Origin: an uncultured Pelagibacteraceae bacterium
Lineage (GTDB): Bacteria > Pseudomonadota > Alphaproteobacteria > Pelagibacterales > Pelagibacteraceae
Direction: 5' to 3'
Assembly: GCA_902614905.1 (NCBI GenBank)
Contig: CACMMN010000002.1
Span: 1 to 40,000 of the forward strand
DNA length: 40,000 nt
Shown here piece by piece: positions 14,884 to 33,518 of this stretch. The notes beneath the pieces are model-generated. The model did no database searches and was not told the DNA's origin. It worked only from the letters and a program-made list of their open reading frames with translations. Within the stretch, counting starts at the first letter, position 1. Each line of letters begins with the position of its first letter. The translations under genes and the position numbers were made by a program.

Positions 14884-14913
14884 TTTATATCGTTCAAATT
14901 TTGAACAGTAAAG
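14884..14913 (-). promoter_or_regulatory. Palindrome-in-spacer promoter, copy 1 (leftward)
   Basis: Read on the minus strand, a -35 box TTTACT (14912-14907) is separated by exactly 17 bases from a -10 box TATAAA (14889-14884). The spacer holds a 15-base inverted repeat (14892-14906) with perfect 7-base arms GTTCAAA/TTTGAAC around one central base. The predicted transcription start, near 14877, is about six bases before the ATG at 14871, so the leader is almost absent. Two more copies occur at 25770-25799 and 33489-33518. A dimeric repressor bound to the spacer would block RNA polymerase. Sequence and spacing are seen directly, and the regulatory role is inferred. Confidence 0.75.
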
Positions 14914-14943: not shown

Positions 14944-15714
14944 TTACTTTTGATAAATAATGTTATTTATTTCTTTGTTATAACTTTTAGTAAGAGATTT
15001 TACTATATCATCACATAACGCAATTTCGTTTTTGGAAAGATTAATTTCTCTGTTTAGTCCTCTTAAATATCTTGATGATTTTTTTATTTTATTTAAGTCG
15101 TTATTTTTTAGATCAAAATTATCGTCATTTAAAATTAATTTTAAAAAATTTTTTTCATTATTAATAAATTCTTTATAATTTATAAATAATTTTTCTGCTT
15201 CTATTTTAGAATTATACCAAGAAATAACAAACTTTACATGGAAAGGTGTGTAATTAAGAATTATATTTTTATTCATACTGCTTACAGTCATATTTTTATG
15301 TAATATACAAAAGGGATTTTTATCATAAATTTTTTCTTTGATAATTTGATCTCTTAAACTACAAATTGTTTCATATATATTTCTTGTTTGTATTATTACC
15401 TTATGTTTCTTAGAAATATACTTAGAAATATAATCATCAAATAAAGAATGTTGATGTGAAGTAAAAACATTATCCTTAAAATTGGATAAAGTTAAATTTT
15501 TATACAATTCATTAATATCAGTAACTTGCGGTCTGTTCCTATAAAAAGGAACTGCTGGAAGTACAGTAAAATTTTTATTAATAAATATATTTTTTAAATA
15601 TGTTGAAGCAGATTTAGGTGTACAAAAATGCCAAACGAAATTGCTTGTTCTAATTTTCTTTTTTATTTTTTTGGCTCTTAAATAAAATATTAATCTATTT
15701 ATATTTCTTATCAT
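14944..15714 (-). CDS. Sulfotransferase-family protein
   Basis: The 256-residue protein has HFCTPKSASTYLKN (about residues 29-42), a good match to the 5'-phosphosulfate loop of PAPS-dependent sulfotransferases, including the loop lysine. KVIIQTRNIYETICSLRD (105-122) follows as the 3'-phosphate site, with Arg111 and Ser119 in the expected R-x7-S pattern. Two histidines in TSHQHS (85-90) lie where the catalytic base is usually found. It probably sulfates a glycan or lipid carrier in the cytoplasm. Its start overlaps the upstream SGNH gene by 20 bases. It is the last gene of the operon that begins with the MarR-type regulator. The 72 bases after its stop carry only promoter copy 1. Motif quality is better than in the other sulfotransferase-like gene (8762-9730). 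Confidence 0.7.
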   Translation of the reverse strand: MIRNINRLIFYLRAKKIKKKIRTSNFVWHFCTPKSASTYLKNIFINKNFTVLPAVPFYRNRPQVTDINELYKNLTLSNFKDNVFTSHQHSLFDDYISKYISKKHKVIIQTRNIYETICSLRDQIIKEKIYDKNPFCILHKNMTVSSMNKNIILNYTPFHVKFVISWYNSKIEAEKLFINYKEFINNEKNFLKLILNDDNFDLKNNDLNKIKKSSRYLRGLNREINLSKNEIALCDDIVKSLTKSYNKEINNIIYQK

Positions 15715-17089
15715 TGCTTATCATCTCGTAAATAAAATTAGAAATTTCAATATAACCTTCCTCTGTAAAATGTCCTTGAGTTTGATAGGGGATCAAAGCC
15801 ATAGGATTTTCGTGATTTTTAAAAAAATTGCCTGTGTCTATAGGTTTAATATTATACTTATTTACTATATTTAAAATATCTTTCTTATGCCTGCAGTTGG
15901 GACAAATCCCTGGATTTTTTTTATATCTACCATAGTTTTCCAAGTACACAAAATAAAGGTTTACATTATTTTTTTTTAATGAATTGACTATATTATTAGT
16001 TACAACTTCAAAATCTTTTAAATTTATATATTCATTTTTATGTTTAAAAATTATCTGTCTTATATGGTATAATTTTATGTATTGAGAAAATAAAACTCTT
16101 TTTTTTTTTGAATAATTATTATTAATTTCTTCTTCCTTGGTTTCAAAATATTTTCCTTCAATTTTTTTAAAAGATTGGTTAATACGATTTTCAATTATTT
16201 CATTAATTATACCTTGCTTGGCAATTAAATTTTGTTCATAATCTTCGTCTTGCAAATACTTTCTTAGAGTATTTGATTTCATTTCAAAGTTTAAATCTGA
16301 CAGATCATTTCCCTCATAGTATATCCAAATCACATTATCAATATTTTGAAATTTTATAATATATTCTCTAATCACTGCAAGGATCGACAGCGGGCCAAAC
16401 CCCCCTTGCCCTAAATTAATTATCCCACCTTCAATGGATTTTTTCCTTAAATTCCCAGTGAATGTATTTTCTTCATTTACACATGCACCATGAACCATGG
16501 AGTCGCCTAAAAATACAAAATTTATTTTTTTTTTGTCCCATTCTATATCTGGATTGTTAAATCCATACCGATCACTTTTATATCTTGAGTAATAACCTAT
16601 TTCGTTACAATATATAGTTTCAACATTTGATTTTCCAGATAGTGGATAAACTGACATGTTTTCCTCTAAATAAAATTCTTTTGGAGGAACTACTTTAGAT
16701 ATATCTTTATTCTGTTCTTTTTCATCGAGATAAATTTTAGCAACTGACCTATTATCATATTCTGCATTATAAATTTTTTTATATTCTAATTTTTGATTAA
16801 TAAATTGTTTTAAGGCTTTATTATCTAATTGATCTAAAATCAAATATAATTCAACTAAATAAAGAGAAAAAAATATAGAAAATGAAAGTAGCAAAATATT
16901 TTTTTTATTTTCATAAGATAATTTTATGTAACATAAACAAAAAATAAAAAAAAATATTATAAAAATAAAATATGGTTTATAATAATTATTAATATTGCCG
17001 TCATGAACAATTTGAGATTTATAGTAAATATATACAGATAATAGAGCTAACAATATATGTGGTATAAATATAATTATTTTATTTCTCAT
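15695..17089 (-). CDS. Membrane-anchored SGNH/GDSL hydrolase-like protein
   Basis: The 464-residue protein begins with about three membrane segments (near 4-23, 39-56 and 63-85). A soluble domain with SGNH-hydrolase blocks follows. FVFLGDSMVHG (191-201) has Ser197 as nucleophile in block I, NLGQGGFGP (225-233) is block II/III, IYYEGNDLSDL (256-266) is the GxND-type block with Asn261, and GHFTEEGY (439-446) supplies the block V histidine. The Asp usually three residues before that histidine is not evident (a Thr is there). Related membrane-tethered SGNH proteins add or remove O-acetyl groups on periplasmic polysaccharides. With the catalytic domain after three membrane spans, a periplasmic location is likely but not certain. 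It lies 14 bases downstream of the CMP-sugar synthetase gene. Confidence 0.7.
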   Translation of the reverse strand: MRNKIIIFIPHILLALLSVYIYYKSQIVHDGNINNYYKPYFIFIIFFFIFCLCYIKLSYENKKNILLLSFSIFFSLYLVELYLILDQLDNKALKQFINQKLEYKKIYNAEYDNRSVAKIYLDEKEQNKDISKVVPPKEFYLEENMSVYPLSGKSNVETIYCNEIGYYSRYKSDRYGFNNPDIEWDKKKINFVFLGDSMVHGACVNEENTFTGNLRKKSIEGGIINLGQGGFGPLSILAVIREYIIKFQNIDNVIWIYYEGNDLSDLNFEMKSNTLRKYLQDEDYEQNLIAKQGIINEIIENRINQSFKKIEGKYFETKEEEINNNYSKKKRVLFSQYIKLYHIRQIIFKHKNEYINLKDFEVVTNNIVNSLKKNNVNLYFVYLENYGRYKKNPGICPNCRHKKDILNIVNKYNIKPIDTGNFFKNHENPMALIPYQTQGHFTEEGYIEISNFIYEMISNDKKYK

Positions 17090-17103
17090 ATACTAGTTAG
17101 ATT

Positions 17104-17799
17104 TTAAAATCTAAATTTTTTTGCATTTCTAAGATCTATGTGATTATCTATATTAATTACATGATAATTTGTAATACTTATTTTACTTTTGTTTAAATAT
17201 ATTGATTTTTTTTCAATCAACTTTTTAATTTTAAAAATATAAAATAAACCGTTTCTTATATATGTATTATCTAATTGTTGTCTAGCAACCACTTTTTCTC
17301 CACTTTTATCAAATAGCCTAAAATAATTTTTTTTAGTACAAGTAATAATTTTTTTGGGATGAAATTTTTTTTCTACTTTTGAAACAGACCAAATACTATT
17401 TAAATTATTATCAATTAATTCGTTTAATGATTTAGTTATTTGACTCTTTTTTCTAAATGGAGAAGTTGGTTGTAAATAAATTAGAATATCAAAATTTTTG
17501 TTAATAGATTTTTTTAAATTATAAATTGTATTTTCTATTATTTGATAATCTGAAATAAAATCCCCAGAAAGTTTATTGGGCCTTATCATGCTATTAACTT
17601 TCATTTTTCTTCCAGTTTCTAAAATCTTTTTATGATCAGAATTAACTACAATGTGATCAACAAAATTAAGTGATTTTGCAAATTCTATAGTAATCTGAAT
17701 GAGTGTTTTGCCGTTAATTTTTTTTAGATTTTTTAACTTTATTCCTTTACTACCACCTCGGGCTGGAATTATTATTAAGATCTTTTTATTTTTAAGCAT
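17104..17799 (-). CDS. neuA: Acylneuraminate/pseudaminate cytidylyltransferase-type CMP-sugar synthetase
   Basis: The 231-residue protein has the NeuA-family start IIIPARGGSKGIKLKN (about residues 9-24), which binds CTP, then VVNSDHKKI and LIYLQPTSPFR with the conserved QPTSP-R segment. Enzymes of this family activate a nonulosonic acid (sialic, legionaminic or pseudaminic) to its CMP form. The next gene in the operon, four bases upstream, is a NeuB-family synthase, the expected partner. Because PseB and PseC homologues occur in the same island, a pseudaminate-type substrate (PseF activity) is more likely than sialic acid. The short 231-residue length fits bacterial single-domain family members. 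The symbol marks the family rather than a proven substrate. Confidence 0.85.
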   Translation of the reverse strand: MLKNKKILIIIPARGGSKGIKLKNLKKINGKTLIQITIEFAKSLNFVDHIVVNSDHKKILETGRKMKVNSMIRPNKLSGDFISDYQIIENTIYNLKKSINKNFDILIYLQPTSPFRKKSQITKSLNELIDNNLNSIWSVSKVEKKFHPKKIITCTKKNYFRLFDKSGEKVVARQQLDNTYIRNGLFYIFKIKKLIEKKSIYLNKSKISITNYHVINIDNHIDLRNAKKFRF

Positions 17800-17802
17800 T
17801 AA

Positions 17803-19353
17803 CTAATTAGAAAATCCGTATTTATTGTCTATAGCTCCAAAGCCCCAATTTTTAACATACGTTTTTCTTTCATCTCTACTTAGTTTGGAAATTCTTTTAT
17901 CTTTATAAAAACTGTCATCTTTGTAACTTGTTGTAGAAATTTCCTCAAAAATACAACCATTTTTATCAGTTCTAAATTTATGCCATACACCAGGCTTAAC
18001 CAAAATTTTATCACCTGATTTTAGTATGGATTTTTTTCCATTTAAGGTCGAGATCAGTCTTCCTGATAAAATTTGGAAGGTCTCTTCTTTTTTTTTATGT
18101 TTGTGAAGTGGGTGTTTTTGATTTGCAAAAAGAACAACTATTTTTTTTGCATAACTTCTATTAACACAGTTAAACAGAAAACAACCATATTGTAAAAACT
18201 TCCTAACTCCATAGTGATGTGAAATTTCTAAATCAAAATCTTCACCCAAATCTATTTGATTATTATTTAAAATCCCCTTTACATTGTGAATATAACTCGT
18301 GATTAGCTCTAAGTTTCTATCTTTTTTTATTATAATATTTTTTTTCGTAATCTTTTCATCTTTTTTAAATATTTTATTACTTATATTTACAAGCATTTTT
18401 GAGCTTATTTCAGAGGACGATAATTGCCCTTGTTGTTTTGGGAATGCAAAATAAACGTTTTCTTTATTTAATATAGTTTTCTTATTTATTTTTTTTTTAG
18501 CATATGCACCTCTATCAAGCATACTTAGGGTTTTTTTCTCGATTTTACTTATAATTTTTTTTTCGCCCCCAAGGGTAAGTTTTACATTCTCAAGATTTTT
18601 CAAATATTTTTCAAATTGATTAGGTGTAATAGAATAATTGTTAAGTTTGTATTTTTTGCTATTTAATCCAATATGTTTTTCAAACATTCTGGCTCCAGCT
18701 GAGTAAGCAATTGTTGAAGGTAATAAATTTTCTGGTTCCTCGTGAGTCGACCATCCTATTACTAAATTCTTATAACGTTTTTTTAATATATTTATCTGAT
18801 TTAATTGCATGGTATCATTGGAAGAAGGGTAGATCGCGGTACAATGCATAATAGCAAATGATGTATTTCTCTGACTAAAAAAACTGACTATTTTGTCTAT
18901 TTGGGCAATAGTTTTTCCTCCAGTTGAAATAATTTTCGGGATCTTAGATTCTCTTGCTTTTTCTAATAAGCTCCAATCATTTGATGAAACGCTTGCAATT
19001 TTCATAATATCAAATTTCATTTTTACAATTTTATCTATAGAACTTTCATCAAAAGGAGTGCAGGATGTTAATAATCCATTTTTTTTTATTAGTTTTCTTA
19101 TACGCTCAAACTTATCTAATGACATTTCAGTTGAAAGGAACCTTTTAACAAAATGATTATCTTTATTATTAATTTGACTTGGGTGAATGAAAGTTTTTAA
19201 GTTTCTAAATTGGAACTTTATAGTGGCCTTTACCCTTTTTTTTTTGACGATTTTTGAGAATAAATTTACAATTTTTTTTGCATGATTGTAATCTCCAAAA
19301 TGGTTGTTAGCCATATCCAAAACGAATAAATTATTAAAAATATTATTATTCAT
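17803..19353 (-). CDS. neuB: NeuB-family nonulosonic acid synthase fused to a C-terminal cupin
   Basis: Residues 1-280 form a NeuB TIM barrel, which condenses phosphoenolpyruvate with a six-carbon sugar to give a nine-carbon acid. Visible elements are MANNHFGD (14-21), IKFQFRN, SCTPFD (97-102), KIASVSSND, STGG (143-146), MHCTAIYP (169-176), WSTHE and FEKHIGL (224-230). Residues 280-345 form an antifreeze-like SAF domain starting at DRGAYAKK. Residues 400-480 are an extra cupin with HPLHKH and KEETFQILSG, where His417, His419, Glu424 and His458 would bind a metal, resembling D-lyxose isomerase-type cupins. At 516 residues it is about 160 longer than ordinary NeuB. The cupin may isomerise or present the substrate. 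The motif usually written GYSDH is WSTHE here. Confidence 0.85.
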   Translation of the reverse strand: MNNNIFNNLFVLDMANNHFGDYNHAKKIVNLFSKIVKKKRVKATIKFQFRNLKTFIHPSQINNKDNHFVKRFLSTEMSLDKFERIRKLIKKNGLLTSCTPFDESSIDKIVKMKFDIMKIASVSSNDWSLLEKARESKIPKIISTGGKTIAQIDKIVSFFSQRNTSFAIMHCTAIYPSSNDTMQLNQINILKKRYKNLVIGWSTHEEPENLLPSTIAYSAGARMFEKHIGLNSKKYKLNNYSITPNQFEKYLKNLENVKLTLGGEKKIISKIEKKTLSMLDRGAYAKKKINKKTILNKENVYFAFPKQQGQLSSSEISSKMLVNISNKIFKKDEKITKKNIIIKKDRNLELITSYIHNVKGILNNNQIDLGEDFDLEISHHYGVRKFLQYGCFLFNCVNRSYAKKIVVLFANQKHPLHKHKKKEETFQILSGRLISTLNGKKSILKSGDKILVKPGVWHKFRTDKNGCIFEEISTTSYKDDSFYKDKRISKLSRDERKTYVKNWGFGAIDNKYGFSN

Positions 19354-19354
19354 A

Positions 19355-20383
19355 TTAAAAAAACCTTCTAATTATTTTCATGCATTCAATTGCTTTGATA
19401 ATATTGATTCTTGACAAAAAATATTTTTTTTTTGTATCTATACCACAAATGTGCTTTATTTCGCTAATAAATTCTGTAGATCTATCTTTTCTGAAAAAAT
19501 TTTTCTGTTCTTTTCTGCCATTGATTAATCTTACAAGGTCATTATTTTTTTTAAAGTTATGAATCCAAGAAATGATTCTATTTTTTTTTAAATAGATATT
19601 TATTTCTTTTCTTGGATTTAAACTAAATAAATCTAATTCTAAATTTAATTTTTTTGATTTAGAATAAAATAATATACTTGAATACTTATCATATTTTTTA
19701 TTTTTAGTAGTTGTAGTAAAAACGACTCTTTTGTCTAAAATATTGAATTTATTTTTAAAAAATTTATTAAGTAGACATATACTTAAATGTAATCCATGCG
19801 AATGTTCTTGTAAGGCTCCGCCTCCTTTTTTAAAATCTCCTAAATATGTATCCTTCTCACTTTTAAGCCAAAAATGAGCATTCATTATTCCTCTCCATCC
19901 CTCTCTCCATTGAATATCAATAAATTCAATATCATTAGGGTTAACTGACTCTATCTTTTTAAACAAATAATTAATTGATGGAGAAATAGAGTGATTATAG
20001 CCACAAAATATATTTCCACTATTAATTTCTTTTTTGGATAATGAAAATTTTTGATTAAATACGCAAAGTGGTTTCTCTATAAGTATTTTTTTAAAATTTA
20101 AATTATTTTTACATTTTTTATATAATTCGAAGTGAGAAATTGGTGGTGTTCCAATTATTACTAATTCAAATTTATTTTTAAGTTTAAATACTTCTTTAAA
20201 ATTTACTAATTTAATTTTATTATTCCATTTTCCATATCTTTTTATAAAGACTTTTTTTCTCATTCTTTTAAGTGCAGTCAAAGAAATATCTGTAACAAAA
20301 ATATTGAATTTAAGTTTTAAACATGCATTGGTCATGTGATTGCCAATTGATCCTGCGCCAAAAATTAAAACATTTTTAACCAT
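19355..20383 (-). CDS. Gfo/Idh/MocA-family NAD(P)-dependent oxidoreductase
   Basis: The 342-residue protein has a Rossmann motif IFGAGSIGNH (7-16), VIIGTPPISHFE (75-86) and the family signature IEKPLC (102-107), in which Lys104 is the usual catalytic or cofactor-positioning residue. EHSHGLHLSI further on fits the C-terminal domain histidine motif used as acid/base. Such enzymes oxidise or reduce sugar nucleotides or free sugars, for example 3-dehydrogenation before amination. It lies between the NeuB-cupin gene and the asparagine-synthase gene. Its start overlaps the latter by eight bases, and its stop is two bases from the NeuB start. Substrate unknown. A role in making a modified precursor for the nonulosonate is plausible. 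Confidence 0.8.
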   Translation of the reverse strand: MVKNVLIFGAGSIGNHMTNACLKLKFNIFVTDISLTALKRMRKKVFIKRYGKWNNKIKLVNFKEVFKLKNKFELVIIGTPPISHFELYKKCKNNLNFKKILIEKPLCVFNQKFSLSKKEINSGNIFCGYNHSISPSINYLFKKIESVNPNDIEFIDIQWREGWRGIMNAHFWLKSEKDTYLGDFKKGGGALQEHSHGLHLSICLLNKFFKNKFNILDKRVVFTTTTKNKKYDKYSSILFYSKSKKLNLELDLFSLNPRKEINIYLKKNRIISWIHNFKKNNDLVRLINGRKEQKNFFRKDRSTEFISEIKHICGIDTKKKYFLSRINIIKAIECMKIIRRFF

Positions 20384-22187
20384 AAGTTTTCGAAAATCGA
20401 TTTAGGAATATTGATGTTGTTAAAATAACAAATAAATAAAAACTAGATGAATTTTTACTTTTTTTGAAAAGTTCATACTTTTTTATGATTTTATTCTTAT
20501 CAAAAATATCATTAAAAGTTGAATTTGATGAATTAATTGTGTCTATGAAAAAATCCTCTAAATAAGTTGAAAGCCATAGTTTTTGAGGATCAACAATATC
20601 TCGTTTATTTTTTTGAAAAAAACTTTTTAAATCATATGAATGTAATGTTTTTTTTAACAAATATCTAGAACCATATTTTTTATTGTATTTCTCTTTATTT
20701 TTAAGATGATAACAAAAGTTAAAAAGATTATGATTTAGAAATGGTACTCTAGTTTCAATACTATGCTTCATAGATATTCTATCTGTATATTTTAGCATTC
20801 TGGGTAATTTGATGTATTTGATATCATAAATCTGAGATTTTTGTAAATTGTTAAGTTTACATTTAGTTTTAAATTCAAGATTGTTTTTTGATTTAACGTA
20901 ATCTGAGTAAAAATCTTTATTAAGTAAGTCTAGATCAACTCCTAGAGTACCATCTGTTGTATATTTGCCTTGATGTTTTTTTGTAAGCAATTTTTTTCTA
21001 AATATATTTTTTCCAAATTTTCTTTTTAAATAATCTGTATTATATTCGTCAGTTAAGTATGGAAAATAATTATAACCATAGCTGCCGAACATCTCGTCTC
21101 CACCATGTCCTTCAACAATAACTTTTAAATTATCTTCTTTTGCTAATTTGTATAAGGAATTTACTGCAAAGAGTCTCATAGAAGTAAATGGAGACTCTAA
21201 AGTTTCTGTTAAGTCACTCATATTATCAACCACATCAGCAGGTTTAAGTTTATAGATCTTATTTTTTAATCCTAAATATTTACAAGATTTTTTAGCAGCC
21301 TCAGATTCACCAAATTTTTTTGATATGAAATCATAAGTATATGTTGTCATTTGATATTTAAGATTCTTAGAAAAGTATGTGGCTAAAAAATTACTGTCAG
21401 TGCCTCCACTTAAAAATAATCCAATTTTCCTGTCAGATATTAAGTGTTGATTCAGACTCTCATTGAGTAAGGTTTTTAATTTATCTGAGTTTGGACTTTT
21501 ATAATTAAATAATTTTTTTGATAAATCCCAGTATTTGAACTTTTTTTTTTTATATTTTGTAAGCACAATATAATGACCGGACTCTATTGAAGATATATTT
21601 TTAAAAAAAGTATCCTCACCATGATCTAGATATCCATCTATTAAAAGATTACCAAAGGTTTTAAGATTAAATAGGTTGTTCTTTTTGTTGTATTTCAAGA
21701 TTGGTTTTATTTCAGAGGACAAAACATAACTATTTTGATTTTCTGAAAAATAAAGTGGTTTTATACCAAATCTATCTCTTGCTACAAAACATTTATTTTC
21801 AAGTTTATCGTATATTACAAAGCTGAACATTCCCTCAATTAGTTTTAAACATCTAAAGTTGTATTTTGAGAAAAGATTAACAAGTATTTCTGTGTCAGAA
21901 TTGCTTTTTAATTTAATTTCAGGTAAATACTGTCTAAGTTTTTTCGCATTATAAATTTCCCCATTAAAATTAATTAAATATCTTTTACTGTGATCAAACA
22001 TTGGTTGATTTCCTTTATTGCTCAAATCTATAATTTTTAATCTAAAAAAATTTGATCTAAAATTCTTATCAAAATATGATTTTACGGGCGTATCTCCCCT
22101 GTGTAACATTAGCTTTGATGAATTATTGAAATTTTCAATGTCATGATTAAACGATTTTTTTTTAAATTCTATGAAAAATCCGCACAT
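20376..22187 (-). CDS. Asparagine synthase-like glutamine amidotransferase (AsnB type)
   Basis: The 603-residue protein begins MCGFFIEF, so Cys2 is the N-terminal nucleophile after Met removal. The glutaminase domain shows FNGEIYN (74-80), SNSDTE and DRFGIKPL. The synthetase domain has the PP-loop FLSGGTDS (258-265) and an EGHGGDEMFG motif. AsnB-type proteins activate a carboxylate with ATP and transfer ammonia from glutamine. In glycan clusters such proteins typically amidate uronic acids or related sugar carboxylates. At about 600 residues it has the length of such cluster-associated enzymes rather than the shorter housekeeping AsnB. A free-asparagine role cannot be excluded. Neighbouring genes are a KpsC/S-like transferase and a Gfo/Idh oxidoreductase. 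Confidence 0.85.
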   Translation of the reverse strand: MCGFFIEFKKKSFNHDIENFNNSSKLMLHRGDTPVKSYFDKNFRSNFFRLKIIDLSNKGNQPMFDHSKRYLINFNGEIYNAKKLRQYLPEIKLKSNSDTEILVNLFSKYNFRCLKLIEGMFSFVIYDKLENKCFVARDRFGIKPLYFSENQNSYVLSSEIKPILKYNKKNNLFNLKTFGNLLIDGYLDHGEDTFFKNISSIESGHYIVLTKYKKKKFKYWDLSKKLFNYKSPNSDKLKTLLNESLNQHLISDRKIGLFLSGGTDSNFLATYFSKNLKYQMTTYTYDFISKKFGESEAAKKSCKYLGLKNKIYKLKPADVVDNMSDLTETLESPFTSMRLFAVNSLYKLAKEDNLKVIVEGHGGDEMFGSYGYNYFPYLTDEYNTDYLKRKFGKNIFRKKLLTKKHQGKYTTDGTLGVDLDLLNKDFYSDYVKSKNNLEFKTKCKLNNLQKSQIYDIKYIKLPRMLKYTDRISMKHSIETRVPFLNHNLFNFCYHLKNKEKYNKKYGSRYLLKKTLHSYDLKSFFQKNKRDIVDPQKLWLSTYLEDFFIDTINSSNSTFNDIFDKNKIIKKYELFKKSKNSSSFYLFVILTTSIFLNRFSKTYG

Positions 22188-22191
22188 ATAA

Positions 22192-23727
22192 TTAATATTT
22201 AAATTTATTTTTTAATTCAAAAACTTTTTTTATTTCTTTAAAATAGAAATCCCACATATAGTCTAAATTCTTTTGATTATTTCTTAGATTAGATTGATAA
22301 ATATCATTTTTAAAACCAATATCATAAGCTGCGGATATATAATTCAATAACTTTTCATCGTAATTATCTTTAACTCTGTTATCAAAAGATTCTTCAATTG
22401 TAGTTATAATAGAGGAAATTTCCTCTAAATGTTTTAACTTATAAACATTAGGTAGTTCTGACATCATTTCGAGATCACCTATTAAAATGGCCGGTTTAAA
22501 AAATATTGAAGATTCAAAAACAACTGTACCACCAAAAGAAATTAAATATTTCATTTTTTGGTAAATTTTATCCATAGGCGTAGAGGGATGAATGATTTTT
22601 ACATTTAAAGTATTTTGAATCTTATTTAAAAAAGTTTTTGATCTTTTGCCAAAAGTCCATGGATGGTCTTTTGTTACTAAAGTAATTCCATTTGGTAAAA
22701 ATCTTGCTAAAGTTCTTATTGTTGATAAAACATGATCATGCACCGGATTTAATAATCCTAATTGGCTTTCTGGATAATGTTGTAATGGAAAAAAAATAAA
22801 ATTGTTTATATTTTCGATTTTATCATATTTAAAATTTTGAGTGTCAATAATATTTTTTCTTTCTGAAATGTAATCTCTTATTAAATAAAACAAATTGGTA
22901 TTATCAGAAGCTGTAATTTGTTTTTTTTTAAGTCTATCATTTTTTTTAAAATGGTAAAAAATCATAGAAATTAATTTTTTAACGTCTGAGAGGTTATACC
23001 ATTTTTTTGTTAACTTGATATCTCTCATATGAAATGCTATCTTCAATTTTTGTCTGTTTTCTGACAAATAATTTTTTGCGTTTTGAAGATTCGATGAGTT
23101 ATTAATTGAAATATTAAATTTTTTTACTTTGTCTAAAAAAAAACTTTTTGAACTATTTATGTCATAGTAAAAAGCACTTATATTTTGAACCTTGGTATCA
23201 GAGGAAAAGAAAAAAGGAATTTTATATTTGTTGGATAATTGTTGAATTAAATAATGCTTAATATCTCCAAAGTTATATCCAATAATTAATTCAGGTTTGA
23301 ATTCATTAAATAACTTTCTTAAAGAACATGCAAAGGCTAAAATATATTCAACAATGGTTTCATCAGAAATATTTTGTTCATATGAGAATGGGTATTTCTT
23401 ATTGTAAGAAAGACTATATTGCCTTAATGTATGTGCATATTTCCAGATATTATTTAATTCAAAGTCCTTCTCAAACTCTTTTAATGAATAATTATTTTTT
23501 TTTATAATCTCTTTTGTTTTTTTTGACACATCGCTTTCATTTAATGAAAATTCAAATTTGACTTCTTTTTGATTATTTATAAAATGTTCAGTAGACTTTT
23601 TAAAATTGATAGTCGCTAATTTTGACCCAAATTGATTAAGTTTTTTAGTTATTTCAAATCCATGATTTATTGCCCAATCTCTTTGATGTATAACTATAAT
23701 TCTTTTATCTTTTAAGAAATCTGTCAT
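22192..23727 (-). CDS. Capsule polysaccharide (KpsC/KpsS-like) glycosyltransferase-like protein
   Basis: The 511-residue protein contains FIFFPLQHYPESQLGLL (about residues 312-328), LPNGITLVTKDHPWTFGKRS (about 346-365) and YLISFGGTVVFESSIFFKPAILIGD (about 392-416). The order of a PLQ-PE motif, VK-HP-G-R and a GT-x-x-x-E-x-x-x-x-x-K-P-x-x-x-G motif is that of the Capsule_synth family, whose members transfer beta-Kdo or related acidic sugars onto a lipid. A transferase that uses a CMP-nonulosonate or CMP-Kdo donor fits an operon that also contains NeuB and NeuA family genes. An N-terminal domain of about 200 residues has no recognised motif. Assignment is by pattern only. Confidence 0.65.
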   Translation of the reverse strand: MTDFLKDKRIIVIHQRDWAINHGFEITKKLNQFGSKLATINFKKSTEHFINNQKEVKFEFSLNESDVSKKTKEIIKKNNYSLKEFEKDFELNNIWKYAHTLRQYSLSYNKKYPFSYEQNISDETIVEYILAFACSLRKLFNEFKPELIIGYNFGDIKHYLIQQLSNKYKIPFFFSSDTKVQNISAFYYDINSSKSFFLDKVKKFNISINNSSNLQNAKNYLSENRQKLKIAFHMRDIKLTKKWYNLSDVKKLISMIFYHFKKNDRLKKKQITASDNTNLFYLIRDYISERKNIIDTQNFKYDKIENINNFIFFPLQHYPESQLGLLNPVHDHVLSTIRTLARFLPNGITLVTKDHPWTFGKRSKTFLNKIQNTLNVKIIHPSTPMDKIYQKMKYLISFGGTVVFESSIFFKPAILIGDLEMMSELPNVYKLKHLEEISSIITTIEESFDNRVKDNYDEKLLNYISAAYDIGFKNDIYQSNLRNNQKNLDYMWDFYFKEIKKVFELKNKFKY

Positions 23728-23736
23728 TAAAATTTT

Positions 23737-24741
23737 TTAAGATATTTGAATTCCTTTAGAACTGTACTTAACTTTGTCCTTTTTTGATTTACTCAACTGT
23801 AAATCTGAAGTGAAGAATCTATCCCCTACTTTCAGTTTTGAAATTATATTTTGATTTTTTATGTTTAAAACTTTTTCAATTAAAAGAACATTTTTATCTC
23901 TTGTGCTGACTACAATCCAGTCACCATGATGACGGATAATCAAACCAGTCATAAATGGATGATTAATAGTATCTCCCGAACTCAATTGAACCCTTTTTAT
24001 TTTTACAAATTGCTTATTTATTGTTGTAGATGAACCTGAATATGGGTCATCAAACGCGTTGATAAATCTCTCAATTTCATATGATTTCATATTCCAGTCA
24101 ATCCAGCCATTAATTTCTGTATTAAGTCTAGGATAGTAAGTTCCTAAGTAGTCCAATTGATGTTTGAGTTGAAATTTTTTTCCGCTAATTATTTTTGAGA
24201 TAAAGTTTTTGTAAAATACTAATAAATTATTATTAGCATAATGATCAAATTCTGTAGGTATTCTACAACTTGAAGGAAATATTGTTGTTTTGTAGTCTAT
24301 AATTGGACCTTTATCAATACTCTTATCTATTAGGTGAACAAGTTGATTTGATATTCTTTCCCCTCTCAATATTTTCCACGACCAATGTCCGGCCCCCGCA
24401 TCGTAGGGAAGTCTTGCGCCATGAAAATTTATCAAATTTCCACTAAAGAAATTTTGGATTGTCTCTTTTTTAAAAATATATCTACAACCAAAGCTGATGA
24501 ATAAAGTTTTTTTTATATCAAATTTTTTTTTTAGATTGCTTCGAATTTTGCTGTTGAAGTTGTAAGATATTTCGTGATTTACATTTATTTTTTTTGATTT
24601 TATTTGGTTTTTGGTTGATATTAGATAACTATTTAGTTTTAATTTTTTATTTTCACGATATAATTTTTCAATTATATCTATGTAACCAAGAAATACTACG
24701 TTTTCTAAATTTTCAACATAAAAAAAATTATTCTTAATCAT
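23737..24741 (-). CDS. Sugar N-formyltransferase-like protein
   Basis: The 334-residue protein has a formyltransferase core. LINFHGARLPYDAGAGHWSW (about residues 103-122) supplies Asn105 and His107, and IDKSIDKGPII (138-148) supplies Asp143, together the Asn-His-Asp triad of N10-formyl-THF-dependent enzymes such as methionyl-tRNA and sugar N-formyltransferases. A C-terminal part with IDWNMKSYEIERFINAFDDPY matches the element after the catalytic domain in sugar formyltransferases. A glycan cluster favours an amino-sugar acceptor. Because a PseH-type acetyltransferase is absent in the window, an N-formyl group on the nonulosonate precursor is a natural proposal. It overlaps the downstream neighbour of the regulator by eight bases. 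Confidence 0.8.
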   Translation of the reverse strand: MIKNNFFYVENLENVVFLGYIDIIEKLYRENKKLKLNSYLISTKNQIKSKKINVNHEISYNFNSKIRSNLKKKFDIKKTLFISFGCRYIFKKETIQNFFSGNLINFHGARLPYDAGAGHWSWKILRGERISNQLVHLIDKSIDKGPIIDYKTTIFPSSCRIPTEFDHYANNNLLVFYKNFISKIISGKKFQLKHQLDYLGTYYPRLNTEINGWIDWNMKSYEIERFINAFDDPYSGSSTTINKQFVKIKRVQLSSGDTINHPFMTGLIIRHHGDWIVVSTRDKNVLLIEKVLNIKNQNIISKLKVGDRFFTSDLQLSKSKKDKVKYSSKGIQIS

Positions 24742-25435
24742 TTTTTTTGAATAAAATAAAATACCAAGGTAGATGAACCGGGCCTGAAAAAAGAGTGTTT
24801 TTGTTAAATTCAGTCTTTATTGTATAGCTACCTCTAGTCTTTTTTTTCTTTTTAATTTTTTTTTTAGGAAAAAAGTTTTTTTTAGTGATCAATTTATAAC
24901 CATATTTTTCAAAAATTTTGATTGTATTAGGTAATGAATGAATGTTAAAATCAGCATCTGGATTATTATCGTTAATTATTTTGTTATTTAAGTCTCTAAT
25001 GTGTATTAAAACATCCAAATATCCCTCATAAAAAAGTGAATTAATTGCTATCCATTTAGCTTTCAGATTTTTTATACTTTTAACTACAGGTTCTATTTTT
25101 TTAAATACGCAAAAAGTGTGGGTAGAAAATAAAGCGTCGTATCTATTTTTGTTTTTATTTATTTTCAAAATATTTTTAACATAAAATTTATTATTTTTAT
25201 AATTATTAAATTCATTTGCTTTTTTAATTTGAGACTTGGCGTAATCCCATCCAGTAAAATTAATATTTGGATATTTTTTAGAAAAATAATTTATGTTAGA
25301 ACCAATTCCACAACCAAGATCTAAAATACTTTTATTATTTCTATTAAAAAAATTATTATTTTTTAAAAATTTTTCAAATTCTATTGTGCTTTGGTATGGT
25401 TTTTTAAATTGTATTATTTCTGTATTTTTGCTCAT
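24734..25435 (-). CDS. Class I SAM-dependent methyltransferase
   Basis: The product has motif I SILDLGCGIGSN (about residues 36-47), NFTGWDYAKSQI as motif II and LFSTHTFCVFKKI as the post-II strand, so it is a class I methyltransferase of about 233 residues. I choose ATG 25435-25433, one base after the regulator stop. A longer frame to 25462 would overlap the regulator by 26 bases and add nine residues of no recognisable family character. It sits between the MarR-type regulator and the formyltransferase in the leftward operon. The C-terminal half is basic and contains a K-rich run. The acceptor is unknown; small-molecule or sugar methylation is likely. Confidence 0.7.
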   Translation of the reverse strand: MSKNTEIIQFKKPYQSTIEFEKFLKNNNFFNRNNKSILDLGCGIGSNINYFSKKYPNINFTGWDYAKSQIKKANEFNNYKNNKFYVKNILKINKNKNRYDALFSTHTFCVFKKIEPVVKSIKNLKAKWIAINSLFYEGYLDVLIHIRDLNNKIINDNNPDADFNIHSLPNTIKIFEKYGYKLITKKNFFPKKKIKKKKKTRGSYTIKTEFNKNTLFSGPVHLPWYFILFKKND

Positions 25436-25436
25436 A

Positions 25437-25763
25437 TTAATCAATTTTTTTTTCCAGTTCATTTTTTAATTCGTCATACTCCTGCATTTTTCTTTTCATA
25501 AAATTAATAGTTAACTGGGTTTTGAGAGCAATACCTTTAGGTGTTATTATATAAAAATAATTATTTTTAGAATTTAAATTAAATCTATTTTTGTTTTTTT
25601 TAAAATTTTGAATTTTAATAAGTCCTTTTTGTTTTAATGCAGTAATAATATAATTTAGTTTTCCTAAACTTATTCCAAGATTTTTTGATAAATCTCTCTG
25701 TGAGGCCTCAGGATCTTTATTTATTTTTCTTAAAACATCTAAATATTCTTGATCTTTTTTCAT
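25437..25763 (-). CDS. EPS-associated MarR-family transcriptional regulator
   Basis: The 108-residue protein matches the MarR_EPS family in length and pattern. ASQRDLSKNLGISLGKLNYI (about residues 19-38) is the winged-helix recognition region, ITALKQKGLIKIQNFKK is the wing start, ITPKGIALKTQLT (about 73-85) is the conserved TPxG segment, and a C-terminal helix follows with the EYDELKNEL pattern. Members of this family occur next to exopolysaccharide operons. A palindromic promoter at 25770-25799 abuts the gene, and its predicted start site falls on or beside the ATG, so the message would be leaderless. There is no alternative Met downstream. The palindrome recurs at the other two leftward promoters, so this regulator is the prime candidate to bind all three. 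Confidence 0.85.
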   Translation of the reverse strand: MKKDQEYLDVLRKINKDPEASQRDLSKNLGISLGKLNYIITALKQKGLIKIQNFKKNKNRFNLNSKNNYFYIITPKGIALKTQLTINFMKRKMQEYDELKNELEKKID

Positions 25764-25769
25764 AAGTTT

Positions 25770-25799
25770 GTTATAACGTTCATATTTTGAACAGTAAAG
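25770..25799 (-). promoter_or_regulatory. Palindrome-in-spacer promoter, copy 2 (leftward, at the regulator)
   Basis: On the minus strand, TTTACT (25798-25793) and TATAAC (25775-25770) are 17 bases apart. The inverted repeat at 25778-25792 reads GTTCATA-T-TTTGAAC, so one arm position is mismatched relative to copies 1 and 3. The expected transcription start is near 25763, which is the A of the regulator ATG, so this would be a leaderless transcript. The 57-base gap also separates the divergent amidotransferase gene (start 25821). A rightward promoter is not clearly resolvable here. The role as operator for autoregulation is inferred. Confidence 0.75.
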
Positions 25800-25820: not shown

Positions 25821-26981
25821 ATGAAAATATGCTCTACTTGCGTTATACCAGAAACGGCTGAAACACTAACTTTCTCCGAAACAGGAAAATGTTCAGTCTG
25901 TAATCAAATTAACTTTAAACACAAAATAAACTGGGAATCTAGAGGAAAAGATTTGGATAAATTAATAGAAAACTACAAAGGTAAGTATGATTATGATTGC
26001 GTCGTTCCTTTCTCTGGAGGCAAAGATTCTACTTTCACGCTTTGGTATTTAGTTAAAAAAAAAAAATTAAAACCTTTGGTAGTTCGGTTTGACCATAATT
26101 TTTATAGAAAGAATCTAGAGGAAAATAATCAAAGAACTTTGAATATTCTAGGTGTTGATATTATAAATTTTAAACCAAGTTTTGAAATTGTAAAAAAAAC
26201 AATGATTGAAAGTTTAATTAGACGAGGTGACTTTTGTTGGCATTGTCACGTTGGCATCGCAGCTTATCCAGTTAATATTGCAATAGAAAAAAAAATTCCC
26301 CTAATATTTTATGGTGAGCCATCTTCGGAATATTCTTCTTATTACAACTATGAAGAATTTGAAGAGGGCAATGTAGAACATTTTAATAAAACTACAAACC
26401 TAGGCATAAATGCAGAAGATATGTTAGAAATGATAAATGAAAGATTTCCAAATTCTAATTACACATTAAATGATTTTAAACCTTTTATTTTTCCTAGTCA
26501 GAGAGAGATGAATATTAATAATATAAAATCTGCATACTTAGGTAATTACATTCCCTGGGATGTTAAAAAACAAGTTAAAATAATTAAAGATGAATTAGGT
26601 TGGAAAGGTGATAATGTTGAAGGCATTCCACCAGAATATGAGTATGAAAAAATAGAATGCATGATGCAAGGAGTTAGAGATTATATAAAATTTCTTAAAA
26701 GAGGATTTGGTCGTACTGCACATTTAACTTCAATAGATATTAGAAACAATAGAATGTCACGAGATAAGGCACTTGATTTATGTAAAATTTTTGATGGTAA
26801 AAAACCAAAATCTTTGAGCTTATTTTTAAAAATTATAAACAAATCTGAAGAAGAATTTTACTCTATGGTAAAAAATCATATTGTATCTCCGGCTCCGCGG
26901 TGGGATCAAAATGAAATGAAAAAAAATAAATCAAATATTACTCCAAGTGACTTTGATAGCTGGTTAGAAAAATTTTCTTAG
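25821..26981 (+). CDS. N-acetyl sugar amidotransferase (WbpG/PseA-like, acetamidino formation)
   Basis: The 386-residue protein has a zinc-binding N-terminus (Cys4, Cys7, Cys24, Cys27), a PP-loop ATPase motif FSGGKDS (64-70) and a further CWHCHVG (138-144). These are hallmarks of the N-acetyl sugar amidotransferase family, which converts a sugar N-acetyl group to an acetamidino group by adenylating it and adding ammonia. The ammonia would come from the HisH/HisF pair encoded immediately downstream (one and nine bases apart). Known relatives are WbpG in Pseudomonas O-antigen and PseA/LegA-type proteins in nonulosonate pathways. A SGGKDS PP-loop plus the paired glutaminase strongly supports the role. 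The exact sugar is not known, with a pseudaminate-type sugar favoured by context. Confidence 0.9.
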   Translation: MKICSTCVIPETAETLTFSETGKCSVCNQINFKHKINWESRGKDLDKLIENYKGKYDYDCVVPFSGGKDSTFTLWYLVKKKKLKPLVVRFDHNFYRKNLEENNQRTLNILGVDIINFKPSFEIVKKTMIESLIRRGDFCWHCHVGIAAYPVNIAIEKKIPLIFYGEPSSEYSSYYNYEEFEEGNVEHFNKTTNLGINAEDMLEMINERFPNSNYTLNDFKPFIFPSQREMNINNIKSAYLGNYIPWDVKKQVKIIKDELGWKGDNVEGIPPEYEYEKIECMMQGVRDYIKFLKRGFGRTAHLTSIDIRNNRMSRDKALDLCKIFDGKKPKSLSLFLKIINKSEEEFYSMVKNHIVSPAPRWDQNEMKKNKSNITPSDFDSWLEKFS

Positions 26982-26982
26982 A

Positions 26983-27591
26983 ATGAATATTGGTATTATA
27001 GATTATGGAGCAGGAAATGTTCAATCTGTTTACAATGCTATATATAGGTTAGGGTATGATCCTCTAATAATTCAATCATATAAAGAAATTGGCAAGCAAG
27101 ACAAATTAATAATACCGGGTGTGGGATCTGCTCATAGTTGCATTAAAAGTCTCAAAGAAAAAAATATGTTCGATTTAATAAGAACATTTTATGAGTCAGA
27201 AAAGCCAATACTAGGTATATGTCTTGGCTTACAAATTTTTTGTAAAAAACTTTATGAGAACGGTATTTCAAGTGGGCTAAATATTATTAATGCTGATGTG
27301 GTTCCATTCGAAGAAGATACAAAAACAAATATTGGATGGTCTGACGTTGAGTTAAATAATGAAATTAAAAATAAATTTAACTGCAAAAAAAATACAAGTT
27401 TTTATTTTTGTCACTCATATTATTTAAAGTTGAATAGTAAAGATAATAAGATAAATTGCTATTATTCAAATATATTTAACAAAAAGGTTCCAGCTGTATT
27501 AGAGAAAGATAATTTCTTAGGAACACAATTTCATCCTGAAAAAAGTCAGGTTAATGGATCAAATCTTTTAATACATTTTTTAAAAAAATAA
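26983..27591 (+). CDS. hisH: HisH-type glutaminase subunit (sugar amidotransferase partner)
   Basis: The 202-residue class I glutamine amidotransferase has PGVGSAH (45-51) as the oxyanion-strand region, the nucleophile elbow LGICLGLQ with Cys80, and QFHPEKSQ with His184 and Glu186 completing the triad. It hydrolyses glutamine and passes ammonia through an associated HisF-type barrel. Placement between the sugar amidotransferase and a HisF homologue, one base after the first stop, is the WbpG-HisH-HisF arrangement, so its job here is probably glycan amidination and not histidine synthesis. There are no other histidine genes in the window. Confidence 0.9.
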   Translation: MNIGIIDYGAGNVQSVYNAIYRLGYDPLIIQSYKEIGKQDKLIIPGVGSAHSCIKSLKEKNMFDLIRTFYESEKPILGICLGLQIFCKKLYENGISSGLNIINADVVPFEEDTKTNIGWSDVELNNEIKNKFNCKKNTSFYFCHSYYLKLNSKDNKINCYYSNIFNKKVPAVLEKDNFLGTQFHPEKSQVNGSNLLIHFLKK

Positions 27592-27600
27592 TTTCCAATA

Positions 27601-28344
27601 ATGGCTTATTTAAGAATAATTCCTTCATTGCTACTATCAAATAAAAAATTAGTCAAAGGTGTGCAATTTAAAAATCACAAAATAGCTGGAGGTCCTAACT
27701 CAACAATTTTAGCATATGATAGCCAAGGTGCTGATGAGATATCTCTAATTGATATCGACTCTTACCATTCACATAAGGAACCAGATTATGAAACATTAAA
27801 TAAAATTTCAGAAAGTTGTTCTACACCTATTACATTTGGAGGTGGGATTACTAACTTAGATATCGCTCTAAAAGTTATAAGATCAGGCGCTGAGAAAGTT
27901 TATCTAAACAGAGCTGTTTTAAAAAATCAAAATATTTTAAAGGAGTTATCAAAAAAAATAGGATCTCAAGCAATAGTTGTTGGTATTAATTTAATTAAAA
28001 GAGAAAAAAAATTTAAAATTTATGAGAGAGAAGGGTCTAATTATGATTTGTTTGATTATTTGAAAAAAGTTCAAAATCTAGGAGCAGGGGAAATCAAAAT
28101 TACTTTTGTTGAGAGAGAAGGCAAAAAGCTAGGCTTAGATCTAGAAATTTGCAAAACAATTTTAAAATTTTTATCAGTTCCATGTATTTTTGAGGGTGGT
28201 ATTGGTTCTTTGGAGGATATTAAAAATGCATTTATGAATAATGTTAATGCAGTTGGTTTGGGCACCATGTTAATATTTAGTGACTACAATATTGTTAAAA
28301 TAAAAAAATACCTCTTAAATGAAAATTTTAAAATTAGGATTTGA
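27601..28344 (+). CDS. hisF: HisF-type barrel, AglZ/HisF2-like, probable ammonia channel for amidation
   Basis: The 247-residue protein aligns with HisF. It has RIIPSLLLSNKKLVKG (5-20), the TFGGGI phosphate-binding loop (78-83), VGIN (127-130) and GLGTMLIF near the end. The two catalytic aspartates of Thermotoga HisF, Asp11 and Asp130, are Leu11 and Asn130 here. Loss of Asp11 in a PSLLL context is typical of HisF homologues in sugar amidotransferase triads. The barrel therefore probably tunnels ammonia from HisH to the amidotransferase without cyclase activity. Its stop overlaps the convergent PseC-like stop by 11 bases. Confidence 0.85.
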   Translation: MAYLRIIPSLLLSNKKLVKGVQFKNHKIAGGPNSTILAYDSQGADEISLIDIDSYHSHKEPDYETLNKISESCSTPITFGGGITNLDIALKVIRSGAEKVYLNRAVLKNQNILKELSKKIGSQAIVVGINLIKREKKFKIYEREGSNYDLFDYLKKVQNLGAGEIKITFVEREGKKLGLDLEICKTILKFLSVPCIFEGGIGSLEDIKNAFMNNVNAVGLGTMLIFSDYNIVKIKKYLLNENFKIRI

Positions 28345-30512: not shown

Positions 30513-32540
30513 TTAATTTAATCTTTTAAAAGTGCTCTGACAAACCTGTCCATCTAAAAGTTTGTTTATATTTTTGTTAGTTTGTGATTCTTTTATTTTG
30601 TAAAATATTTTATCGAGATTTTTTGTATAAAGTTTTAAATCTTTATCAGTGTGTGCAGTAGAAACAAAAATTGAGTTAGATGATAAAAAATTACTTTTAA
30701 GCATTTCTTGTGATATAAATGTTTTATATTTTAAATTATTTTTGCTATCAAATGAAAAATTTGGAACGGCATCAATACCATTAATATTAGTTTTTAATTC
30801 ATATTTTTTTGATAATTTAATCCAAATTTTTTTTATTTTTCTTCCATAATTCGAGACGTAAGTCCAAGATTTTATTTTATTCATTATTTCTAACGTTTTT
30901 AAAGCTGCTGTATAACCACTTCTCTCTGACCAAAATGTGCTACTTATAAAACTATCTTTGGCATGTTTCATTACAAATCCCTTACCTATTATTGCAGTAA
31001 TTGCATATCCATTACCTAGAGCTTTACCAAACATACAAATATCAGGATTGATTTTATATTTTAAATGCAATCCTCCATAAACTTCTCTAAATCCTGAACT
31101 GCATTCATCAAATATTAAAACTATTTTATTTTTTTTTGTTAAATCTCTAATTTTTGATAAAAATTCTTTAGAAGGTATATAATTTCTTGAAACTTCCATT
31201 ATCACACATCCTATGTTTTTATTTTTAATTAAATTTTCAAATGCTTTTAAATCGTTGTATTCAAAGGTAAACACTGTGTTTTTTAATTTATTTAAAACAC
31301 CTTCAGTCTTTAAATTTGATAATAAATGAGGGTTTAAACTATTTTGATTTTTTAAGTTTGCAGCAAGATACCAATCATGCCACCCATGGTAGCCGCAAAC
31401 AGCAATATTTTGTTTTTTAGAATACGCTCTAGCTATTCTTATAGCCATCGCGTTAGCTTCTGCCCCTGTTCTAGCAAATTTTGCATATTCAGACCATGGA
31501 TGTAACTCTATTAATTTTTCTGCTAATAACACCTCTTCAACACAATTTAGTGAAGACATATTACTTTTATCAATATTGTCTTTGACCGCATCATCTATTT
31601 CTTTTCTAGCATATCCTAACAAATTTGTTCCCACTCCCATCAAGTAAAAATCTTTAAATTTTTTATTATCTAAATCCCAAATCGTAGAGCCTTTTGCCTT
31701 TGTATAATAAGTTGGCCAAAATTTAGGGAGAACTAAGTCTGGACTTTTAGAAAAAAACATATTTCCATTTGGAATTGATTTTAAAGCTCTCCTCCACATT
31801 TTTTGCCCACTACATAATTGTGAACCTTCATCTCTTTTAAATTTTGTGTTATTTTTAAATAAAATTGGTTTTTTTTTGTAAAGTTTAATAATTTCATTTA
31901 GAGTAAAATTCTCTCTTGGGTAAAAATATTTAAATATTGCTTTGATGCATTCATAATCCTCGTTTTCATCAATTGTTAATCTTAAATTAGAATAATTATT
32001 TTTAGATTTTTTTTCACCAACATAAAATTTATTTGGATTATTTTTGATGTATGATGTTACGTGCTCTTTATCATAATCTATATTTTTTTGCTTAAAAATT
32101 TTTTTTAAAGTAGTAAATTTAAATACTTCAACATCTATACCATCTGGAAAAGTCGGTTTTTTACTATCACTTAAATAGTCGTAATTTCTCTTTTCAAACT
32201 CTGAAATAAAATTATCTACGATTGAGTAATCAACAAGTGGATTGTCTCCAGTCAACCTTACTATTATTTTAGCTTTAAATTTTTTTGCCGCAAAATAATA
32301 TCGGCTTAAGACATTTTTTTTACTTCCAATATAATAATCAATTTTTTTTTTTTTAAGAATTTTTATTAGTTGCTTGTTTGAAACATCAATTGATGTTGCA
32401 ATTACAATCTTGTCGATATATTTAGATTTTTCTAGTCTGTCTATAAGTATCTCTATTAAAGTTTTGTTATTGATTTTAGATAATATTTTTCCTGGATATC
32501 TAATGGATTCGCACCTAGCTTGAATTATAGCACATATCAT
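30513..32540 (-). CDS. Fusion: SpsF-like cytidylyltransferase plus class III (GSA-type) aminotransferase
   Basis: This 675-residue protein has two parts. Residues 1-235 form an SpsF-like nucleotidyltransferase with AIIQARCESIRYPGK (4-18), YIGSKKNVLSRY and VRLTGDNPLVD (94-104). Residues 240-675 resemble glutamate-1-semialdehyde aminotransferases. They have ARTGAEANAMAIRIARA (356-372), GYHGWHDWY (383-391), LIFDECSSGFR (475-485) and MFGKALGNG (503-511), where Lys506 binds PLP. This pairing occurs in polysaccharide clusters with PseB, PseC and an aldo/keto reductase. The joined activities suggest amination and nucleotide activation of a nonulosonate or related keto sugar, perhaps at C8. It lies between the reductase and PseB. 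The specific reaction is inferred, not read from sequence. Confidence 0.8.
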   Translation of the reverse strand: MICAIIQARCESIRYPGKILSKINNKTLIEILIDRLEKSKYIDKIVIATSIDVSNKQLIKILKKKKIDYYIGSKKNVLSRYYFAAKKFKAKIIVRLTGDNPLVDYSIVDNFISEFEKRNYDYLSDSKKPTFPDGIDVEVFKFTTLKKIFKQKNIDYDKEHVTSYIKNNPNKFYVGEKKSKNNYSNLRLTIDENEDYECIKAIFKYFYPRENFTLNEIIKLYKKKPILFKNNTKFKRDEGSQLCSGQKMWRRALKSIPNGNMFFSKSPDLVLPKFWPTYYTKAKGSTIWDLDNKKFKDFYLMGVGTNLLGYARKEIDDAVKDNIDKSNMSSLNCVEEVLLAEKLIELHPWSEYAKFARTGAEANAMAIRIARAYSKKQNIAVCGYHGWHDWYLAANLKNQNSLNPHLLSNLKTEGVLNKLKNTVFTFEYNDLKAFENLIKNKNIGCVIMEVSRNYIPSKEFLSKIRDLTKKNKIVLIFDECSSGFREVYGGLHLKYKINPDICMFGKALGNGYAITAIIGKGFVMKHAKDSFISSTFWSERSGYTAALKTLEIMNKIKSWTYVSNYGRKIKKIWIKLSKKYELKTNINGIDAVPNFSFDSKNNLKYKTFISQEMLKSNFLSSNSIFVSTAHTDKDLKLYTKNLDKIFYKIKESQTNKNINKLLDGQVCQSTFKRLN

Positions 32541-33488: not shown

Positions 33489-33518
33489 CTTATATCGTTC
33501 AAATTTTGAACAGTAAAG
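33489..33518 (-). promoter_or_regulatory. Palindrome-in-spacer promoter, copy 3 (leftward)
   Basis: On the minus strand, TTTACT (33517-33512) lies 17 bases from TATAAG (33494-33489). The inverted repeat at 33497-33511 is identical to copy 1, with 7-base arms around one central base. The predicted start near 33482 leaves about 50 bases to the aldo/keto reductase ATG at 33429. Identity to copies 1 and 2 extends from the -10 box through the -35 box; copies 2 and 3 also share several further bases on the -35 side. The sequence match is direct, and control by the MarR-type regulator is inferred. Confidence 0.75.

Follow-up and report, generated by a model that had tools for sequence, protein, structure and literature searches.

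The winged-helix regulator MarR_EPS, encoded within a surface-glycan cluster of an uncultured Pelagibacteraceae bacterium, is, to judge from sequence comparison, probably a dimeric repressor that acts on the inverted repeat GTTCA-N5-TGAAC, serving as a local autorepressor of its own gene and of the glycan cluster around it. In the window (the whole stretch of 40,000 nt that was analysed) this 15-bp palindrome precedes the regulator and two other operons of the same cluster, and because the same site lies ahead of nearly all relatives of the gene, the regulator most likely shuts off both itself and the cluster. Autorepressors acting through a palindromic operator are a system type already known; what is new is how widely this operator is spread, together with the fusions to enzymes, and the site seems to be previously undescribed. 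Surface-glycan clusters of SAR11 are believed to be important in encounters with phage and grazers, and nothing about how they are switched was found in the searched literature. A defined operator allows jointly controlled operons to be predicted in uncultured genomes; further, MarR_EPS, a large family that has been named but not studied, gains its first testable target site.

The regulator and its setting in the glycan cluster

The features on which the argument rests are the following:

25437..25763, minus strand: MarR_EPS (TIGR04176) winged-helix regulator gene, 108 aa, identified by its TIGR04176 profile match
25778..25792, minus strand: operator copy 2, GTTCAAAATATGAAC, in the promoter of the regulator gene itself; core common to 73/75 homologues
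25793..25798, minus strand: -35-like TTTACT directly abutting operator copy 2 (consensus geometry)
25770..25775, minus strand: -10-like TATAAC of copy 2, 17-nt spacer; predicted +1 is the A of the ATG at 25763
14892..14906, minus strand: operator copy 1, GTTCAAAATTTGAAC, with TTTACT at 14907-14912 and TATAAA at 14884-14889; predicted leader about 6 nt
33497..33511, minus strand: operator copy 3, GTTCAAAATTTGAAC, with TTTACT at 33512-33517 and TATAAG at 33489-33494; predicted leader about 53 nt
14871 to 843, minus strand: copy 1 operon (methyltransferases, ABC transporter, glycosyltransferases)
14944..25462, minus strand: genes behind the regulator (methyltransferase, formyltransferase-like, Asn synthase, NeuB, cytidylyltransferase and others; from Pfam and gene order)
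33429 to 28334, minus strand: copy 3 operon (aldo/keto reductase, cytidylyltransferase-aminotransferase fusion, Polysacc_synt_2, DegT)
25821..28344, plus strand: divergent genes (N-acetyl sugar amidotransferase WbuX, GATase, His_biosynth-like)

The gene, the sites and their promoter-like context are direct observations, as are the conservation, co-occurrence and clustering of the sites described below. An earlier note had treated 25437-25799 as the regulator feature; the gene is real and lies directly behind promoter copy 2, but that span comprises gene plus promoter. The same note took the regulator for the only one in the window, which holds at the sensitivity of a profile scan: no helix-turn-helix family was found by it in the other scanned ORFs, several of which are without a Pfam match.

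In profile searches the protein matches TIGR04176 (MarR family EPS-associated transcriptional regulator) with 116.2 bits (E 6e-34; curated cut-off 88) and passes the Pfam threshold for HTH_24 (38.9 vs 21.9 bits), while it narrowly misses that for MarR (PF01047 and PF12802 being the Pfam entries of the family; 24.0 vs 24.6) and also misses that for MarR_2 (22.0 vs 27); sequence comparison with the PDB gave weak matches only, and among named homologues the closest are from uncultured Pelagibacteraceae (SAR11). The AlphaFold2 model (pLDDT 84, pTM 0.67) is a winged helix with a single long helix (75-107) at the C-terminus; in this single chain the extra N-terminal helix is absent and an interface like that of canonical MarR dimers cannot be recognised. 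The fold resembles MarR proteins (Foldseek E 1e-4 to 1e-3, TM 0.6; VIA Z 10.8-11.5, with 11.5 to both 1lnw_D and 3voe_A), tied as structural neighbours with PadR, the CggR DNA-binding domain and Sso10a (Z 10.7-11.9). With the PadR, CggR and Sso10a-like domains the model has in common a wing with a long helix behind it at the C-terminus; by sequence family, however, the protein does not match PadR or CggR, whose operators also differ from GTTCA-N5-TGAAC. The canonical MarR repressors (E. coli MarR, MexR, MepR) are alike in their winged helix and in the palindromic operator at their own promoter, but are about 140 aa in length, whereas members of the regulator's family have about 105 aa, the usual N-terminal helix being missing and one long C-terminal helix being present in the model. 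As judged from the model, "MarR-like" is right for the fold and the probable mode of action; as a member of the canonical MarR family the regulator is a candidate, with a Pfam MarR score just under the cut-off. A biofilm-related MarR-family repressor, BpsR, is known from Bordetella (PMC6837509).

Profile searches identify the window as a surface-glycan cluster with glycosyltransferases, an ABC transporter, NeuB, methyltransferases, Polysacc_synt_2 and DegT, two cytidylyltransferases of the CMP-sugar type, and the WbuX amidotransferase with its GATase and His_biosynth-like partners. The regulator agrees with TIGR04176 in sequence family and in location, that is, in the exopolysaccharide or surface-glycan setting expected of that family. 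In NCBIfam the entry is a name only; no paper naming TIGR04176 was found in the searched literature, nor any published operator or mechanism for MarR_EPS, subscription journals and regulon databases lying outside the scope of that search. Gene order suggests that the genes at 14944..25462 are likely to be co-transcribed with the regulator from copy 2. The 57-bp gap between the regulator and the divergent amidotransferase gene at 25821 contains operator copy 2, so that any promoter in this gap would overlap it; the divergent genes are perhaps controlled by the regulator as well. Within the copy 3 operon, the ORF at 30513-32540 joins a CTP_transf_3 cytidylyltransferase to a class-III aminotransferase in one protein of 675 aa.

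Read along the minus strand, copy 2 has the sequence TTTACT-GTTCAAAATATGAAC-GT-TATAAC-AAACTT-ATG, with a 17-nt spacer and a 6-nt discriminator. All three sites follow the order TTTACT-site-2 nt-TATAA[ACG]; hence the palindrome occupies most of the 17-nt promoter spacer. The copy-2 promoter was not listed by a mechanical sigma-70 scanner since the -10 rule of the latter demands a T as the sixth base, which is C in TATAAC; as the scanner finds promoter-like matches as frequently in shuffles as in real sequence, the hexamers alone are no evidence, but their recurring position beside the site is. It had been noted before that the predicted transcription start of the regulator coincides with its ATG, and the consensus promoter, from which alone the start is derived, agrees: the 6-nt discriminator places +1 on the A, with which a leaderless regulator mRNA is compatible and therefore possible. 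Copy 1 has nearly this geometry (about 6 nt of predicted leader) and copy 3 does not (about 53 nt). Copy 2 differs from copies 1 and 3 at site position 6 (position 10 on the gene strand). This difference had been read as an arm mismatch which might weaken binding, but it falls within the 5-bp centre, which homologues do not conserve; with conservation confined to GTTCA/TGAAC, weaker binding of copy 2 is not predicted.

Exact GTTCA-N5-TGAAC occurs at three sites in the window, vs 0.02 expected in shuffles. Pattern searches of the 1.01-Mb own genome (assembly about 82% complete) with the 22-mer GTTCAAATTTTGAACAGTAAAG, allowing up to three mismatches, returned three copies, all within the window, and none for the reversed control; the bare pattern has a fourth match at C2:97588, with C in its centre, inside a gene. 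A chance palindrome in AT-rich DNA was rejected on the shuffle counts for the window and for Pelagibacterales upstream regions and on the site counts in other taxa.

Conservation of the site and its distribution among genomes

The set of Pelagibacterales homologues comprised 76 distinct MarR_EPS genes with flanks, one of which has only 4 bp of contig upstream and was not counted as testable. Perfect GTTCA-N5-TGAAC lies within 200 bp upstream of 73 of the other 75, L060 and L086 having no exact site in that range. When all inverted repeats with 5-bp arms and gaps of 0-12 were counted without bias, GTTCA with a gap of 5 ranked first (73/75); Markov shuffles of the upstream regions gave a mean of 0.015 genes with a site and a maximum of 1. 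Further named SAGs (80 loci with 60 genes new to the comparison) carry the exact site upstream in 56 of 59 testable genes; among the four site-less genes one is masked with N, and for L120, L123 and L149 the operator was not found upstream. The proposal that the regulator controls itself through the palindrome, which the earlier note had tied to the presence of the same palindrome before MarR_EPS homologues, is strongly supported by this comparison as well as by homologues elsewhere in the phylum (see below), and unrelated upstream sequence in homologues is excluded.

Two sites are present upstream of 49 genes, 20-24 bp apart in 43 of these. The first abuts TTTACT, TTTACA or TTGACT in 42/73 homologues, and a 17-nt spacer is the best promoter fit in 48/73; the second overlies the -10/start region, with the ATG within the site in about 15 genes. 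The predicted leader measures 0-4 nt in about a third of the homologues and mostly 8-15 nt in the rest. Conservation is restricted to the 5-base arms; bases 6 and 10 of the centre can pair in only about half of the sites (25/43, 24/43 and 12/24).

Co-occurrence was counted across 297 Pelagibacterales genomes, 75 of them with MarR_EPS, using an AT-centred site pattern: 69 have both site and gene, 6 the gene only, 13 the site only and 209 neither (odds ratio 185, Fisher 1e-46, relatedness of the genomes being ignored). Of the 24 sites away from the regulator that were fetched from regulator-bearing genomes, 22 are intergenic, vs 0/8 in regulator-free genomes, where all are inside genes (Fisher 4e-6; tallied by hand, with G028 left out of the test). 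The neighbours of such distant sites are aminotransferase, cytidylyltransferase, amidotransferase and asparagine synthase-like genes, the proteins having been judged by eye and mostly without profiles. On contigs which also hold the regulator, 13 of 13 such sites, among the matches listed, are at most 26 kb from it. In many relatives these sites have no recognisable -35 beside them, so that the exact relation to the promoter varies. G028, a 63% complete genome in which no MarR_EPS was found, has three intergenic sites at one locus (L234, G028:C27) beside radical SAM, 2OG-oxygenase-like and epimerase-like genes.

Proposed mechanism and competing readings

From this pattern we infer binding, dimerisation, and repression rather than activation. 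A regulator dimer would sit on each GTTCA-N5-TGAAC, the half-sites of which are one DNA turn apart, and thereby fill the 17-bp spacer between -35 and -10, where it would hinder RNA polymerase. At copy 2 this would result in negative autoregulation; copies 1 and 3 would place two further operons of the nonulosonate-type surface-glycan cluster under one local switch, perhaps together with the divergent amidotransferase genes. In most relatives the second site, 20-24 bp downstream over the -10 or the start codon, could accommodate another dimer side by side with the first. Repression would be relieved by an inducing signal, itself a postulated element of the scheme.

The same palindromes might instead serve activation, by promoter remodelling or recruitment of RNA polymerase, and the imperfect -35 hexamer (TTTACT) would fit such a role; some MarR-type proteins do activate, for example EmrR (PMC6469979), and dual control is conceivable as well. 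Activation is nevertheless unlikely, as the spacer is already of the optimal 17 bp and filled by the site, and the second site of the relatives lies over the -10/start region, both being positions which normally block initiation. Another view would regard the repeats as a promoter cassette that was copied recently, has no role in regulation and is kept by descent only. The three window copies are indeed alike in some 30 bp outside the palindrome, with still more in common between copies 2 and 3; against this, only the 5-bp arms are constant across relatives and classes while centres and flanks vary, GC-rich genomes included, which leaves the cassette very improbable.

The alphaproteobacterial LexA box, GTTC-N7-GTTC, resembles the site in half-site and N7 spacing, and the palindrome might belong to LexA or some other regulator and be near MarR_EPS by happenstance. 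That is very improbable: the orientation is invariably inverted, not direct, the site tracks MarR_EPS across the 297 genomes (odds ratio 185) and, among the matches listed, clusters within 26 kb of it, and the same site precedes homologues in distant taxa, with a form having a 4-bp centre before enzyme fusions. LexA or an unrelated factor as the owner of the site was rejected on co-occurrence and clustering. An additional translational effect, by a leaderless regulator mRNA and the overlap of operator and start codon, would add to autorepression by the dimer and not replace it. It has somewhat less than an even chance; the predicted +1, which in the window falls on the regulator's ATG, and some 15 relatives whose start codon lies within the operator speak for it, but the transcription start is taken from the consensus only, and longer leaders are predicted at copy 3 and in many relatives.

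Relatives outside SAR11 and enzyme fusions

Among short MarR_EPS genes from other members of the class and phylum, 17/23 upstream regions contain one exact site. A group of proteins of about 210 aa (L096-L116) scores below the TIGR04176 cut-off and combines the winged helix with a C-terminal domain without Pfam match; it is likely a sensor-bearing sister family of MarR_EPS. Here the site lies upstream in 19/21, with two or more in 15, successive sites being mostly 22-25 bp apart. The short and the 210-aa groups together have 52 upstream sites in 11.7 kb, vs 1 in the other 131 kb of these loci.

In one alphaproteobacterial family of 11 proteins (L095, L214-L223) the winged helix is fused to ATP sulfurylase/APS kinase, domains which were profile-searched in one of the 11; all 11 have GTTCA-N4-TGAAC upstream, with a centre one base shorter. 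These fusions possibly supply PAPS for sulfated glycans. There is about an even chance that one domain and a nearly invariant operator, GTTCA-N4/5-TGAAC, serve surface-glycan regulators throughout the phylum, including fusions to NeuB, radical SAM and ATP sulfurylase/APS kinase; with the domain fused to pathway enzymes behind the operator, these enzymes would be their own autorepressors, able to sense substrate or product directly. Fusions behind the same or a one-base-shorter site also suggest what the signal may be, namely a pathway metabolite, either sugar or sulfate.

Polysaccharide operons are also controlled by RfaH and ops, that is, at elongation by a NusG paralogue (PMC7593976). An ops-like GCGGTAGC lies between palindrome and gene in the MarR_EPS leaders of other Alphaproteobacteria (L088-L092, L094, L209), 38-77 bp upstream of the MarR_EPS match; none is present in the SAR11 window leaders. 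Together with the palindrome this element suggests a combination of initiation control and RfaH-type antitermination.

Fusions occur within SAR11 too. Two proteins of about 430 aa, L065 (G235) and L087 (G130), consist of a MarR_EPS domain fused to radical SAM/SPASM and have tandem operators upstream. A minus-strand ORF of 369 aa at L244 (G191:C1:24000-29000) fuses a MarR_EPS-like winged helix to NeuB; GTTCA-N5-TGAAC lies at locus position 2560, about 12 bp ahead of the start of the fusion, which makes a self-regulating nonulosonate synthase possible.
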